Of a stretch of 64,000 bases of DNA, positions 12,631 to 18,736 are shown piece after piece. Location: the NCBI GenBank assembly GCA_905182495.1, contig CAJJBU010000014.1, positions 1 through 64,000 of the forward strand, written 5' to 3'. Position 1 is the stretch's first letter. The number at the start of each line of letters is the position of its first letter. Position numbers and translations under genes: made by a program. The notes beneath the pieces are model-generated. The model had not been told where the DNA came from. It made no database searches and saw nothing but the letters and a program-made list of their open reading frames with translations. Source of the DNA: Flavobacteriales bacterium UBA952. Its GTDB lineage: Bacteria > Bacteroidota > Bacteroidia > Flavobacteriales_D > Crocinitomicaceae.

Positions 12631-12638
12631 TAACTTTG
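12631..12638 (+). promoter_or_regulatory. promoter -7 box (TAACTTTG) for the sigma-factor operon
   Basis: Exact TAnnTTTG match 119 bases before the sigma factor ATG, giving a leader of about 115 bases. The 12532-12757 gap holds nothing else I can identify. No good -33 TTG at the usual distance was seen. Confidence 0.4.
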
Positions 12639-12757
12639 ACTATACCTTTATGAGGCTGCAACGGACCAAGGATTTTTATCACGGGGCTCCTTTATAAAAC
12701 GATAAAAAGAAGAAAACTCAGCACTAACAATTAGGCTGTTATAAAGCAATGAACTAA

Positions 12758-13306
12758 ATGTCGCCACAAGAAACAGAATTTCTTATTGCTCAGGTGAAAA
12801 AAGGCCATCAGGCATCAATAACAGAGCTTTATGAAACACACAAATCCTATTGGTTTCGGATCTGTTTGAGGTACGCGAAAAATAGAGATGAGGCGCAGGA
12901 TGTATTTCAGGATGGTGTCGCAAAAATATTTGAAAAAATAGACACTTTTAATGCACACAAAGGGTCTTTTAACGCATGGTCAAATAAAGTGCTTGTGCAT
13001 GAAGTTCTGAGATCGCTAAAAAAACACCAATGGCAAAATTCATTTAGCAGCGTAGAGGGGTACGAAAACGAGGCCTATGAGCATGACCAGGCCATAGAGC
13101 GCATTAGTGCAAAGGAGCTGACTGAAGTGATTCAGGCATTGCCATTGGGTTATCGAATCGTTTTCAACATGTATGAAATTGAGGGGTATACCCATAAAGA
13201 AATAGCTGAAGCATTGAATATCTCCACTGGGACCTCCAAGTCACAACTGTCAAGGGCCAAAAAAGTGTTGCAAAACGAGATTGTAAAACTTTTTGAAATC
13301 AATTAA
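12758..13306 (+). CDS. RNA polymerase sigma-70 factor, ECF subfamily
   Basis: A 182-residue sigma factor with region 2 (about 20-90, with Asp-Glu-Ala-Gln-Asp-Val-Phe-Gln-Asp) and region 4 (about 120-178, with Leu-Pro-x-Gly-Tyr-Arg-x-Val-Phe-Asn-Met-Tyr-Glu-Ile-Glu-Gly-Tyr and the Thr-His-Lys-Glu-Ile-Ala helix-turn-helix). This is the standard Bacteroidota ECF layout. It recruits RNA polymerase to a small regulon. The next gene starts 2 bases after its stop and encodes a membrane/barrel protein that takes the place of an anti-sigma factor. Confidence 0.93.
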   Translation: MSPQETEFLIAQVKKGHQASITELYETHKSYWFRICLRYAKNRDEAQDVFQDGVAKIFEKIDTFNAHKGSFNAWSNKVLVHEVLRSLKKHQWQNSFSSVEGYENEAYEHDQAIERISAKELTEVIQALPLGYRIVFNMYEIEGYTHKEIAEALNISTGTSKSQLSRAKKVLQNEIVKLFEIN

Positions 13307-13308
13307 AA

Positions 13309-14796
13309 ATGGAAAACAACAATTTAGGAGATTTTATTCGAGGTAAGCTAAACCAAACTGGTTCAGGCGAAGTCTGGGCCAACCCCGACGAGAAGGTAGA
13401 TATATCTGTACTGAATAAAATCAATGCATCCAAAAAGTCCAGGCTCGGAGGGAATAAAACAATGGCTTTTGTAGGTGGAGTCGTGGTTTCCTTATTGTTT
13501 CTTGGTGTCTTTATCTATATGCAAAACGAAAAAATAAATACATTATACCAGCAGGTAAAGGGTCAAAAAGAGAAAATCATTTCGCTAAAAACAGATAAAA
13601 TTGCCCCCAAAGAATCCATTCCTAAAGTAAGCTTAAGCAATATTGAACTATTGGAAACAAAAAAAGAAGTTGAGGTTTTAGAAAATGAAAATAAAAAACT
13701 AATCGCTGAAAACAGCGCCTTGTTACAAAAAAGTCAATCCAAACAGCAACGAACAACGAAAGCTTCCGTAAAAACGAAGCAAGAGAAAGAGAAACCTATA
13801 GAATATGATTTATCTTCAACGACAACCGAAGCTAAAGATTTCGAACCTCAAAAAATAGTATTGGAAAATGATTTAAAGGAGCAGAAAAACCTATTTTCCA
13901 ATCTAAAAGCAAGAGAAAGAAAGCTTTTAGATAGTATATCCGCGCTAACAGCTATGCTCCCAGATACAGTCTCAAATATTGCTCCTGTGCCTCCACAAGT
14001 GGAAATAACAAGACCTATTAAAGAAAGGAAATTCTCAGTCGGCTACGATTACTCCCTAAATTATTGGGACGCTCCCATTGACAGAAACGTAGAAGAACAT
14101 GAAGTTGCATCTTCTAAGGGTGGATTTACAAAAGTCTCATCTGTGGTAAATGGGTTTACATTCGGGTATGCTCCGAACCCTAGAATAAGGTTAATCGGAG
14201 GGTTTCGACTTTCACGTTTCAATGTTTACAGCGCCTATGACCTTTCCCTTGCCTACTCTTCTAATCAAGAAACATTAGGTTCTGGTGGCTCTGTATACAA
14301 CCGCTTCAACCTCACAACAAGTACGCCATACAATACCATGTATAATGAATCTATTGTGACCTTTGACGAGAATAGCGCCCCATCAGATGGTGACTTTATT
14401 GGTTGTTTCAATGAAGTCGATTTGTCCTTTAATGAATATCAAATTCCTTTGGGTGTAGAATATCTATTGAGTGCCAAGAAAACCAGGTTCTTTTTTCAGG
14501 CAGGCCTTCAGCTAAACCTACTTCAATTGCAGGATTTCAGCCACAACACGTATCTTTATGACAGTGAATTTGAATTATTAGAAACGGTTAGCAACGATTT
14601 GAGTAGCCAAAGAATAGAAAACGAATTTAATTTTGGTGCCTATGGTGCACTTGGCATTGAACAACCGGTTTTTACAAACTTTTATTTCAGAGGTTCGTTT
14701 AATTTTAGCCGAACGTTCCTGAAATCAGAGTACAATGACCTCACACCCTCGTACAATTCAAATACATGGCGGTTTGGCATTGGATATAGATTTTAG
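13309..14796 (+). CDS. one-TM, coiled-coil, C-terminal outer-membrane beta-barrel protein; candidate trans-envelope anti-sigma
   Basis: A 495-residue protein with an unusual order: a short cytoplasmic segment (1-50) with the Glu-Val-Trp near residue 21-23 common in anti-sigma-like N termini of Bacteroidota, a single membrane helix (about 52-70), a long charged coiled-coil-prone region (about 71-215), a Pro-rich hinge (about 224-238), and a beta-rich domain (240-495) with alternating Tyr/Phe strands ending in Gly-Ile-Gly-Tyr-Arg-Phe, a typical outer-membrane barrel end. It has no cleavable signal peptide. Gene order right after an ECF sigma factor suggests control of that factor (inference). 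It is followed after 21 bases by a TonB receptor. Confidence 0.72.
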   Translation: MENNNLGDFIRGKLNQTGSGEVWANPDEKVDISVLNKINASKKSRLGGNKTMAFVGGVVVSLLFLGVFIYMQNEKINTLYQQVKGQKEKIISLKTDKIAPKESIPKVSLSNIELLETKKEVEVLENENKKLIAENSALLQKSQSKQQRTTKASVKTKQEKEKPIEYDLSSTTTEAKDFEPQKIVLENDLKEQKNLFSNLKARERKLLDSISALTAMLPDTVSNIAPVPPQVEITRPIKERKFSVGYDYSLNYWDAPIDRNVEEHEVASSKGGFTKVSSVVNGFTFGYAPNPRIRLIGGFRLSRFNVYSAYDLSLAYSSNQETLGSGGSVYNRFNLTTSTPYNTMYNESIVTFDENSAPSDGDFIGCFNEVDLSFNEYQIPLGVEYLLSAKKTRFFFQAGLQLNLLQLQDFSHNTYLYDSEFELLETVSNDLSSQRIENEFNFGAYGALGIEQPVFTNFYFRGSFNFSRTFLKSEYNDLTPSYNSNTWRFGIGYRF

Positions 14797-14817
14797 ATAA
14801 AAAAACAAATATAAAAA

Positions 14818-17220
14818 ATGAAAAAAACAATCCTTTTATTATTTCTTTTAAGCTTTTCATTTCTGAGCTTTTCACAAAAATTCACCATAAGCGGAACCAT
14901 AAAAGAAGCAAAATCTGGAGAGCCGATTATTGGAGCGAAGGTCTATGATTTAAAATCTAAAAAAGGAACACTCTCCAACGAATATGGGTTCTACAGTATA
15001 ACATTGCCCAAAGACAGTGTCTACTTAAGGGTCTCGTATATCGGGTATACAGCCATGGAATATCAGTTTGACGGCGTGAAAAACTATGCCTTATCTGTTG
15101 ACCTAATGACCATACAAGAGCTTGATGAAGTTACGGTTACCGCGGAAAAAAACATTGAGGAGCGGACACAGATGAGCTCCTTTGATGTATCCATTGAAAA
15201 AATTAAAGCACTCCCAGTTTTCTTAGGAGAGAAAGACATCATCAAAACCATTCAGCTCTTTCCTGGTGTTCAGTCAGGTAGTGAGGGGTCCAGTGGAATT
15301 TACGTTCGGGGTGGGGGGCAAGACCAAAACCTCATGCTTTTAGACGGTGTCCCAATCTACAACGCGACTCACTTATTTGGCTTCTTTTCCATATTCAATG
15401 CAGATGCCATCAATAAAGTAACGATGATCAAAGGAGGGTTTCCTGCACGCTACGGTGGCAGACTATCTTCTGTGCTAGATATTCGAATGAAAGAAGGGAA
15501 TATGAAGGAGTTTCATGGAGAAGGTAGTATTGGACTGATCTCTTCGAAGCTATCTCTAGAAGGCCCAATTAAAAAAGACAAAACTTCTTTTATCATCTCA
15601 GGAAGACGGACGTATATAGATGTACTCGCTCGGCCTTTTATTAATATGCGTAATAGAAACCAAGGCGGTGGAAAAGGCGAAGGTGGTTCTAATGAAACAC
15701 AAACTGGGGGGTATTACTTTTGGGATTTAAATGCGAAAATCAACCATAAGTTTTCTGAGACCAGCCGACTCTACTTGAGTGGCTACTTTGGAAGAGACCG
15801 TTTTTATAATGATGCCAACAATAGCTACACAACAGCCGAAGACACGTCAAGTACAGACGAAACTTCAAGCAATGGATTGCGATGGGGAAATGCAATAGCA
15901 GCAGTGCGTTGGAACAAGATCATCAGTCCAAAGCTATTTATGAATCTAACCGGGACATTTAGTCAGTACCAGTTTAGAGTTGGAGGTCAGAACCAATCCA
16001 CAACGACTTATCCCAATGAACCAACCACAAGTCAAAGCACTATTTTTAACTATGATTCAGGGATTCAAGATTGGACAGTTAAAGCTGATTTCGATTACAG
16101 ACCCAATCCAAATCACACCATTAAGTTTGGATTTGGAGATACCTACCACACCTTTGTACCAGGTGTGAATCAAATAGCGCTTACAAACAATACTTCAAGC
16201 GGTATTGATACAACATTTGGGTCTTCAAGACAATATGGTCATGAGCACTGGGCTTATTTTGAAGATGATTGGGAAATTTCAGCACGTCTGAAATTAAACG
16301 TAGGGGTACATTTTTCAGGATTCAAAGCAAATCAGGAATGGTACCCAAGCATTCAGCCTAGGTTCGCAGCAAGGTATATGCTCAATGAAAATTCATCATT
16401 GAAGATGTCCTACTCAAGCATGACTCAGTTTTTACACTTATTAACCAACCCTACAATAGGCCTACCTACAGACCTATGGGTTCCTGTCACAGACCGAGTT
16501 GCGCCAGAGTACTCAAATCAATTTGCACTTGGTTATGCACAAACCCTAACTAAAGGCTTCCAGTTTTCCGTAGAAGGATACTATAAAGACATGAGGAATT
16601 TAATTGCCTACAAAGAGGGAGTTAGCTTTTTTGGGTCTTCACAAGATTGGCAAGATAAAATCACGGTAGGAAATGGAAATAGCTATGGACTAGAGCTATT
16701 GGTGGAAAAAAAAATAGGCAAAACTTCTGGATGGATCGGCTATACCCTGAGCTGGTCAAACAGACAGTTCGACTCTCTAAATTTTGGGAATCCATACCCA
16801 TATATATATGACAGAAGACATGATATTGGGCTTGCCGTGACACATAAGTTTAATGACCGCGTGGATATTGGTGTCGTTTGGGTCTTTGGATCAGGATATG
16901 CCACAACACTCGCACAACAAACCTATTTAGGGGTGGATGGTCTTGGCATTGGCGCAAATACGCCTTACGAACCTATCGAGCATATTGAGGCACGCAACGA
17001 CTATAGAATGCCGGCCTACCACAGGCTAGATATAGGTGTAAACCTTCACAAGAAAAAGAAAAAATGGGAGAGTACATGGAGCTTTGGTCTCTATAATGCT
17101 TATTCCCGTCAAAATGCATTCTTTCTCTTTTTTGAGGAAGGGAATAATGGAACAAGGACGCTAAATCAGCTTAGCTTATTTCCTGTTCTTCCTAGTGTTT
17201 CTTATAGCTTTAAATTTTAA
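14818..17220 (+). CDS. TonB-dependent receptor with N-terminal carboxypeptidase-regulatory-like domain
   Basis: An 800-residue outer-membrane receptor: signal peptide (1-19), a carboxypeptidase D regulatory-like domain (about 24-105, Ser-Gly-Thr-Ile-Lys-Glu-Ala ... Gly-Ala-Lys-Val), a plug (about 125-235, with Ser-Gly-Ile-Tyr-Val-Arg-Gly-Gly-Gly-x-Asp-Gln-Asn and Leu-Asp-Gly-Val-Pro-Ile-Tyr), then a 22-strand barrel ending in Phe. It should import a large or scarce ligand powered by TonB. There is no STN signalling domain and no SusD partner; a DUF4249 lipoprotein follows instead. The substrate cannot be deduced. Confidence 0.93.
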   Translation: MKKTILLLFLLSFSFLSFSQKFTISGTIKEAKSGEPIIGAKVYDLKSKKGTLSNEYGFYSITLPKDSVYLRVSYIGYTAMEYQFDGVKNYALSVDLMTIQELDEVTVTAEKNIEERTQMSSFDVSIEKIKALPVFLGEKDIIKTIQLFPGVQSGSEGSSGIYVRGGGQDQNLMLLDGVPIYNATHLFGFFSIFNADAINKVTMIKGGFPARYGGRLSSVLDIRMKEGNMKEFHGEGSIGLISSKLSLEGPIKKDKTSFIISGRRTYIDVLARPFINMRNRNQGGGKGEGGSNETQTGGYYFWDLNAKINHKFSETSRLYLSGYFGRDRFYNDANNSYTTAEDTSSTDETSSNGLRWGNAIAAVRWNKIISPKLFMNLTGTFSQYQFRVGGQNQSTTTYPNEPTTSQSTIFNYDSGIQDWTVKADFDYRPNPNHTIKFGFGDTYHTFVPGVNQIALTNNTSSGIDTTFGSSRQYGHEHWAYFEDDWEISARLKLNVGVHFSGFKANQEWYPSIQPRFAARYMLNENSSLKMSYSSMTQFLHLLTNPTIGLPTDLWVPVTDRVAPEYSNQFALGYAQTLTKGFQFSVEGYYKDMRNLIAYKEGVSFFGSSQDWQDKITVGNGNSYGLELLVEKKIGKTSGWIGYTLSWSNRQFDSLNFGNPYPYIYDRRHDIGLAVTHKFNDRVDIGVVWVFGSGYATTLAQQTYLGVDGLGIGANTPYEPIEHIEARNDYRMPAYHRLDIGVNLHKKKKKWESTWSFGLYNAYSRQNAFFLFFEEGNNGTRTLNQLSLFPVLPSVSYSFKF

Positions 17221-17224
17221 AAAA

Positions 17225-18136
17225 ATGAAAAAACTTATTTTATTTTTATCCGCCACATCTTTTCTATTATTCACAAATTGCACAAAACAAATTGAGTTTG
17301 ATGCACAGGATATTGCACCACGAATTGTGGTCAATAGTCTTTTTACAAATGACTCTTTATGGGCTGCCAATATTAGCCGAAGTGTTGGCGTATTAGAAAC
17401 AACAAGCTATACGAGTATTGAAGACGCAGATGTCTCAATTTTCGATGGAGACGGCGTTCAGGTGACGACACTTACGAACCAAGGAGATGGGCTTTACACC
17501 TCCCCCACAGGCGCAACGCCTGTAGCCGACGAGCTATACACGATTGAAGTTAGTGCACCTGGGTATACACCCGTAAGCGCAACAAATAGGATTCCTACAG
17601 CCGTTCAGATCAATAGCATTGATACGGTTAGTAGTACCAATAGCGATGGACAGACTATCTTGGAAACAACAATTAATTTTCAAGACCCGCCCGCAAATGC
17701 AAACTACTACATGGTGGAAGTTTTGGTCAAAGGAACATGGATAGACTTCTTTGAAGGGGATACGATTGAATTTCGGGAACCTTTAGAAATTTCTTGCACT
17801 GATGTTAATGTAGAAACGGTAAATAGATTCAATTTCGGAGGCTTTGAAAACACCTATCTATACCTTATGCTCAAGGATGAAAATTTTGATGGGGAAGATT
17901 ACGCACTCACCTTTAGTGTGATCAATTACGCTGAGCTAAAAGACCTAGAGCTTTTTGGTGAAATTAGATTGGTCAACACTAGCGAGGCTTATTTCAACTA
18001 TCTGAAATCCTTTAATCTGTATCAAAGAGCAAGTGGAAATCCATTTGCAACACCGGTTCAAGTATACTCGAACGTAGAAAATGGAATGGGAATATTCGCA
18101 GGAGGAACGCTCACATATTGGGATGTAGGATTTTGA
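17225..18136 (+). CDS. DUF4249 family lipoprotein
   Basis: A 303-residue lipoprotein (lipobox Leu-Phe-Thr-Asn-Cys, Cys19) matching DUF4249: N-terminal Ile-Val-Val-Asn-Ser-Leu-Phe-Thr-Asn-Asp strand, an Ig-like Ala-Asp-Val-Ser-Ile-Phe-Asp-Gly unit, and a beta-rich C-terminal half with an Asn-Val-Glu-Asn-Gly-Met-Gly-Ile-Phe-Ala-Gly ending. These proteins are usually encoded right after a TonB receptor and probably work with it at the cell surface as SusD-like partners, though the mechanism is unknown. The ATG at 17225, 4 bases after the receptor stop, gives a clean signal peptide and is preferred over an ATG at 17195 inside the receptor gene. Confidence 0.88.
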   Translation: MKKLILFLSATSFLLFTNCTKQIEFDAQDIAPRIVVNSLFTNDSLWAANISRSVGVLETTSYTSIEDADVSIFDGDGVQVTTLTNQGDGLYTSPTGATPVADELYTIEVSAPGYTPVSATNRIPTAVQINSIDTVSSTNSDGQTILETTINFQDPPANANYYMVEVLVKGTWIDFFEGDTIEFREPLEISCTDVNVETVNRFNFGGFENTYLYLMLKDENFDGEDYALTFSVINYAELKDLELFGEIRLVNTSEAYFNYLKSFNLYQRASGNPFATPVQVYSNVENGMGIFAGGTLTYWDVGF

Positions 18137-18736
18137 TTATAAGAAATAAACATACCGCATTTATCCTCTTTTTCTTTGGCACATTGCTCCTTAGTATCGG
18201 AAGCTGCAAAAAAAGGATATGAAGCTAGATTTGGCCATTTTTACATCCTTAACGACAGCACGTTTCTCGTAAATGGTGACATGGGCAGCAGAGTAGACAA
18301 TCAGGTAGAAAGGTTGCTCAATAAATACCCAGACATTAGCTACGCTATTATGGAAAAGTGCCCTGGCTCTCGGGATGATGAAGAGCTTTTTAAAGCCGCA
18401 CGCATGATCTATAATCAAAGCGTTCATATCCACCTTCCGCCGAATGCTAAAATTGAATCCGGCGCGGTAGATCTCTTTTTGGCAGGAACTACACGAACGA
18501 TGGACGATGGAGCCAAAATAGGAGTAAATGCTTGGAGTGATGGAAATACATCTGCCACAGAATATCCCGTTGGACATGAAGAGCACGAGATCTATATTGA
18601 CTACTATGCCAGTATTGGTTATTCACAACAAGAGGCAGAAAATCTATATTATTTTATCATCAATGCTGCTGAGCCAAACAACATTCACTATATGACAGCC
18701 GAAGAAATTGAAGTATATTCTATTTTGAATCCGTAA
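18133..18736 (+). pseudogene. ClpP/crotonase-fold lipoprotein, frameshifted at an A7 run as read
   Basis: A TTG at 18133, overlapping the DUF4249 stop, opens a frame with a perfect lipoprotein signal (about 17 hydrophobic residues, then Ser-Ile-Gly-Ser-Cys), which stops 5 codons later. The rest of the protein (to 18736) lies in the next frame. Both join if the run of seven A at 18208-18214 is read as six, giving about 200 residues. The body has the signature of ClpP-like serine hydrolases: Pro-Gly-Ser near residue 63 of the body, Glu-Ser-Gly-Ala-Val-Asp-Leu-Phe-Leu-Ala-Gly (candidate nucleophile Ser, codon near 18458), and Gly-Ala-Lys-Ile-Gly-Val-Asn-Ala-Trp. Activity is unproven. It is probably in the operon with the receptor and DUF4249. 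Confidence 0.65.

Follow-up and report, generated by a model that had tools for sequence, protein, structure and literature searches.

A cluster of five genes in the window (the whole stretch of DNA analysed, 64,000 nucleotides from a marine bacterium) places a 495-residue protein with the layout of the Dma family between an ECF-type sigma factor and a TonB-dependent receptor. This protein is probably a dual-membrane anti-sigma factor, in which the N-terminus would hold the sigma factor, a tether would lead to a barrel in the outer membrane, and release would start transcription of the operon. It is likened here to Dma1-3 by described architecture, and formal membership of the family is not claimed. 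Proteins of this type are already published, and it is the pairing with a TonB receptor that looks unusual. The preliminary description of this DNA had recognised, beside an ECF sigma gene, a single protein chain that starts in the cytoplasm, has one helix for the inner membrane and ends in an outer-membrane-type barrel, and domain searches support this; its observation is confirmed and its interpretation is partly supported. Novelty of the architecture is not supported, since the same layout has been published as the Dma family (PMC13088901) and described in Phocaeicola (PMC9308784).

Organization of the gene cluster

The five genes lie in the same direction, in the order sigma factor, 495-residue protein, TonB receptor, DUF4249 protein and fifth gene, with the following features:

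12758..13306, + strand: ECF-type sigma factor, 182 aa (Pfam Sigma70_r2 and r4_2, TIGR02937, above cut-off)
13309..14796, + strand: Dma-like anti-sigma candidate, 495 aa, whole gene including the stop codon (protein searches)
13309..13455, + strand: cytoplasmic N-terminal segment, residues 1-49, putatively sigma-binding (hhalign against sigma-adjacent N-termini)
13459..13515, + strand: single transmembrane helix, residues 51-69 (hydropathy 2.44)
13519..14031, + strand: periplasmic tether, residues 71-241, K/E-rich (modelled as helical, with low confidence)
14032..14793, + strand: predicted eight-stranded outer-membrane beta-barrel (AlphaFold2 model, fold and profile matches)
14818..17220, + strand: TonB-dependent receptor, 800 aa (Pfam)
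17225..18136, + strand: DUF4249 protein (PF14054, E 1.4e-38), a lipoprotein by the signal LLFTNC read from the sequence
about 18137..18736, + strand: fifth gene, 205-aa ORF, whose relatives carry a lipoprotein-like signal (comparison with relatives)

As in the Dma layout, the gene for the ECF-type sigma factor (Pfam, TIGR02937) directly adjoins that for the 495-residue protein, and the successive gaps from the sigma gene to the DUF4249 gene of 2, 21 and 4 bp suggest that these genes form one operon. The receptor contains CarboxypepD_reg_2, Plug and barrel domains in Pfam, with no STN domain listed even at E<=10, and no FecR domain was matched at E<=1, in agreement with the preliminary description, which saw neither. 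Pfam gave no anti-sigma domain in the 495-residue protein either, and no upstream motif common to the window and the related loci L003 and L004 was seen by eye. A simple count of the Nei-Gojobori type on one pair of loci (window against L004, with dS of 0.5 to 1.2, near saturation) gave dN/dS values of 0.055 for the sigma factor, 0.28 for residues 71-235 of the 495-residue protein, 0.072 for its barrel, 0.028 for the receptor, 0.032 for the DUF4249 protein and 0.134 for the body of the fifth gene, with the strongest purifying selection on the receptor and the DUF4249 protein.

In the window and in L002, the fifth gene has seven A in a row, across which its signal and its body (ORF 18176-18736) fall into different frames; in L003 and L004, with six A, both parts share a single frame. 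No credible relative of the fifth gene was found in Pfam, NCBIfam or PDB sequences, and a ClpP-like reading of it was dropped, as these searches gave it no support.

Architecture of the 495-residue protein

The helix at residues 51-69 is the sole segment of the protein with a hydropathy above 1.6, in agreement with the single helix of the Dma layout, and it is flanked on its N-terminal side by K42, K43, R45 and K50. The 49 residues ahead of it are long for a signal peptide. Judged from sequence comparison, the evidence that this segment resembles other sigma-adjacent proteins is mixed, with a profile match above decoys and a weak one by plain HMM. Against an HMM of 60 sigma-adjacent N-termini it scored 1.7 bits; 114 of 2000 shuffled sequences did at least as well, and the scores of unrelated ORFs went up to 9.8. 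In the hhalign profile comparison of residues 1-50, seven of the 66 sigma-adjacent proteins outscored every one of 250 decoys (medians 11.8 vs 8.4), the p-value of the rank test being inflated because the 66 proteins are mutually related. A further alignment pairs residues 1-97 with the barrel-type protein L119, which is likewise sigma-adjacent, at a probability of 55.

The tether is long, as in Dma, and measures 171-176 residues in the 10 alignment rows that hold both of its ends. Its identity to the most distant rows (P0010-P0012) is 25-27%, whereas the N-terminus has 53-55% and the barrel 64-67%. Thus, it keeps its length and not its sequence, as expected of a tether-like part. The preliminary description had read about 140 residues of coiled coil here, which is not established, since the heptad test of the K/E-rich linker was not significant. 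A profile search of PDB sequences returned 14 matches at E<=10, and the best one (E 0.034) is presumably a coiled-coil protein. Structure prediction of the 495-residue protein alone gave a barrel model with a pTM of 0.58 and, from 11 sequences, a poor full-length AlphaFold2 model (pLDDT 32), which was used solely for secondary structure and shows three helices in the linker with low confidence.

The C-terminus is predicted to be an outer-membrane beta-barrel, again as in Dma, with strands at residues 242-255, 273-287, 293-313, 363-386, 393-418, 438-455, 458-472 and 478-494. A soluble periplasmic form of residues 240-495 had been named in advance as the finding that would speak against this reading; instead, the AlphaFold2 barrel model matches the OprF/OmpA/OmpW folds, and the strand-alternation signal also supports a barrel. 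For a comparison with other proteins, a profile of residues 225-495 was set against 312 targets, of which 12 were C-termini of barrel-type sigma-adjacent proteins and 300 were other ORFs. The first ranks, at a probability of 86-88, went to L070 and to its ortholog L069, which had been left in the decoy set; the next best of the 312 targets stood at 10.8, and the remaining 11 of the 12 barrel-type targets, all except L070, were indistinct from decoys. Both L069 and L070 come from genomes of the same genus, have an ECF sigma gene directly before them, and carry a transmembrane helix at residues 47-65 or 50-68.

Related sigma factor genes in the order

The 60 sigma genes closest to that of the window were taken from 199 genomes of the order; they are 60 of the 61 matches ranked 3rd to 63rd, the copy on contig C3 of the window's own genome (L060) being left out, and therefore lean to the nearest sigma factors. 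All 60 are directly followed by a gene on the same strand, and 57 of these 60 genes encode an N-terminal transmembrane helix by hydropathy, which marks the position after the sigma gene as that of an anti-sigma factor. Eight of the neighbours are of the barrel type; they were first picked by eye from their C-termini, and strand scores, which cover only the 40 of 60 neighbours with at least 300 residues, gave them a C-terminal strand signal of z >=2.1, with the other proteins of this size reaching at most 1.8. L149 is a borderline case (z 1.7 in one scoring and 2.1 in another). A Pfam barrel match at E<=0.01 was found in three of the eight, and one of the eight passed the Pfam cut-off. In addition, a sigma gene, a transmembrane helix and a barrel-like C-terminus occur together at L069/L070, L075 and L086, and less clearly at L076 (hydropathy of the helix 1.52); at all five of these additional loci the adjoining sigma gene passes Pfam. 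The first five downstream ORFs contained a homologue of the window's receptor or DUF4249 protein at none of the 60 sigma loci, six of which are stretches under 6.5 kb (L096, L103, L105, L109, L140 and L145).

Other kinds of neighbours were also observed. A CHU_C type IX sorting domain is present in 41 of the 60 sigma neighbours (E<=0.01), and a PKD domain also occurs in 28 of the 60; a CHU_C neighbour is found at L060 too (G000:C3:266000-274500), and weakly, below the Pfam cut-off, at L058. These CHU_C-type neighbours carry an inner-membrane helix followed by a secretion tag. Among the paper titles compared, the nearest is that on PorA, a secreted-type protein that reportedly acts on PorXY-SigP signalling in Porphyromonas (PMC7712824). 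In 11 of the 60 loci (L101, L102, L106, L109, L111, L126, L128, L130, L136, L139 and L146) the sigma neighbour is short (<=240 residues, eight of the 11 with a transmembrane helix by hydropathy) and is followed by a separate gene for 314-341 residues, which has a barrel-like C-terminal signal (z >=2.1) in seven of the 11; possibly the same job is here split over two genes. Furthermore, on contig C25 of the window's own genome (L061, 4063-5712), a sigma gene is followed by a gene for a 549-residue protein and then by a separate gene for 320 residues. The 549-residue protein shows a possible transmembrane helix (residues 72-90, hydropathy 1.41) and, at its C-terminus, a PorP/SprF barrel (PF11751, E 7e-18); its layout thus appears Dma-like, the barrel being of the type IX secretion kind. 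The survey as a whole suggests that the anti-sigma factors of the order vary widely at their outer end, which may be a separate barrel gene, a fused barrel, a PorP/SprF barrel or a type IX sorting domain, and that their inner end keeps one layout.

Distribution and gene loss

A search of a large protein collection returned 13 proteins at E<=0.001, including that of the window, with P0009 and P0013 clearly shorter; a second search added one protein (P0014) and a third added none. Full-length members were confined to four genomes of this genus, the same four in a sample of 240 genomes from the family and in an overlapping one of 399 from the order, and in all four the order sigma factor, 495-residue protein, receptor, DUF4249 protein and fifth gene is kept. 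Since two of the four are nearly identical here (5374 of 5379 bases between L002 and the window over 12758-18136), they are counted as three lineages. In the sister genome G234 (L071, 4670-4800), as seen on one contig of a draft genome, the sigma gene and nearly all of the anti-sigma gene are absent from the locus, the receptor and the last barrel codons remain, and the break falls at a short similar stretch. The loss of both genes together is in line with the anti-sigma reading, and this apparent natural deletion provides a comparison case.

The reverse comparison starts from the receptor-DUF4249 pair. Among 40 other DUF4249 loci, picked by hand, mostly from top-ranked matches, and including the second copy in the window's own genome, a homologous receptor lies directly upstream of DUF4249 in 35, as it does in the window. 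None of the 40 loci gave a match to the window's sigma factor (BLASTP, E<=1e-3), nine of them being under 6.5 kb and four (L154, L161, L164 and L165) too short to include the genes before the receptor and hence to tell. In the second pair of the window's own genome (L185, C16:77781-85432), the TonB receptor is split into two ORFs of 561 and 268 aa, and the locus gave no sigma match.

Proposed mechanism

We assume that residues 1-49 would hold the sigma factor at the cytoplasmic face, that the helix would anchor the protein in the inner membrane, and that the tether of steady length would cross the periplasm to an eight-stranded barrel inserted in the outer membrane. The tether would then relay a change at this membrane, through proteolysis or a pulling force, and the freed sigma factor would transcribe its own operon, including the genes for the TonB receptor, the DUF4249 protein and the fifth protein. 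The basis for this reading in sequence and model is the gene order, the domain layout, the barrel fold, the conserved tether length and the purifying selection. The receptor and the DUF4249 protein are most likely at least products of the switch.

As for the signal, it is plausible, if short of probable, that the barrel signals damage to the outer membrane or the failure of barrels to insert, and that the receptor is just one member of the regulon. This would be in line with the barrel-bearing anti-sigma factor of Phocaeicola, whose regulon is induced by a toxin, likely through envelope stress (PMC9308784), and with the effect of Dma1 and Dma2 on vesiculation (PMC13088901). However, the pairing with one receptor system, seen at none of the 60 other sigma loci, suggests a more specific role. 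The receptor and the DUF4249 protein might themselves be the input, if substrate loading or transport altered the contact with the neighbouring barrel, which would read the state of the receptor and relay it through the tether to the sigma factor, so that a single protein would do the job of FecR and of the STN domain. Such gating is possible, on the unlikely side, and it is doubtful that the TonB receptor is an input as well as a product. The short gaps that suggest one operon, the strongest purifying selection on the receptor and the DUF4249 protein, the gene order kept in four genomes and the lack of both STN and FecR all point towards it, but the receptor would share the operon just as well if it were only a target of the sigma factor, and the account of the Dma2 operon gives three genes and names no receptor among them (PMC13088901). 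It also sits poorly with G234, which keeps the receptor after the apparent loss of the sigma and anti-sigma genes. Finally, the protein could be no anti-sigma factor at all but a signal-anchored protein of the outer membrane or periplasm, co-transcribed with the sigma gene by chance. This would agree with the weak N-terminal HMM score and with the missing Pfam anti-sigma domain, but it is very improbable in view of the long N-terminus, the profile match of residues 1-50 and the position directly after the sigma gene, which in the related loci is nearly always held by a membrane protein.

Returning to the dual-membrane anti-sigma factor, it is rather unlikely that a Dma-type protein was recruited in one lineage as a dedicated transducer of the TonB receptor-DUF4249 uptake system. 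If this were true, two barrels would communicate side by side in the outer membrane, one polypeptide would relay the state of the receptor to the sigma factor, and the locus would couple gene control to transport with neither STN nor FecR.

Comparison with known systems

In FecI/FecR/FecA, an ECF sigma factor, an inner-membrane regulator and a TonB receptor are encoded together, and the window resembles this system in the grouping of the three. The difference is that neither FecR nor STN was found in the window at the thresholds given above, on which ground membership of the FecIRA systems was rejected, and that here the regulator seems to extend to the outer membrane on its own. The pair M0N98_03761/03760 of Phocaeicola vulgatus is similar in having an anti-sigma factor predicted to span the periplasm with a C-terminal outer-membrane barrel; it responds to toxin or envelope stress, and the description of its locus mentions no TonB receptor (PMC9308784). 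The pair BT2172/BT2173, reported as a conserved operon, shares with the window a TonB transporter adjoining DUF4249, whereas in the window a sigma and anti-sigma pair precedes the receptor (PMC11003636).

The closest resemblance is to the Dma family of Bacteroides, described as having an N-terminal anti-sigma domain, a transmembrane helix, a long tether and a C-terminal barrel, with an adjoining ECF sigma factor (PMC13088901). The adjacent ECF sigma gene, the cytoplasmic N-terminus, the single helix, the long tether and the C-terminal barrel are common to both. However, the tether of the window is steady in length and modelled as helical with low confidence, while the Dma tethers are called disordered, and the locus of the window adds a TonB receptor, DUF4249 and a fifth gene. 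The discussion in the same source states that the inputs of Dma are unknown (PMC13088901). The gene order of the window, which suggests a link between a Dma-like protein and one specific uptake receptor, would offer a candidate input for these recently described proteins.
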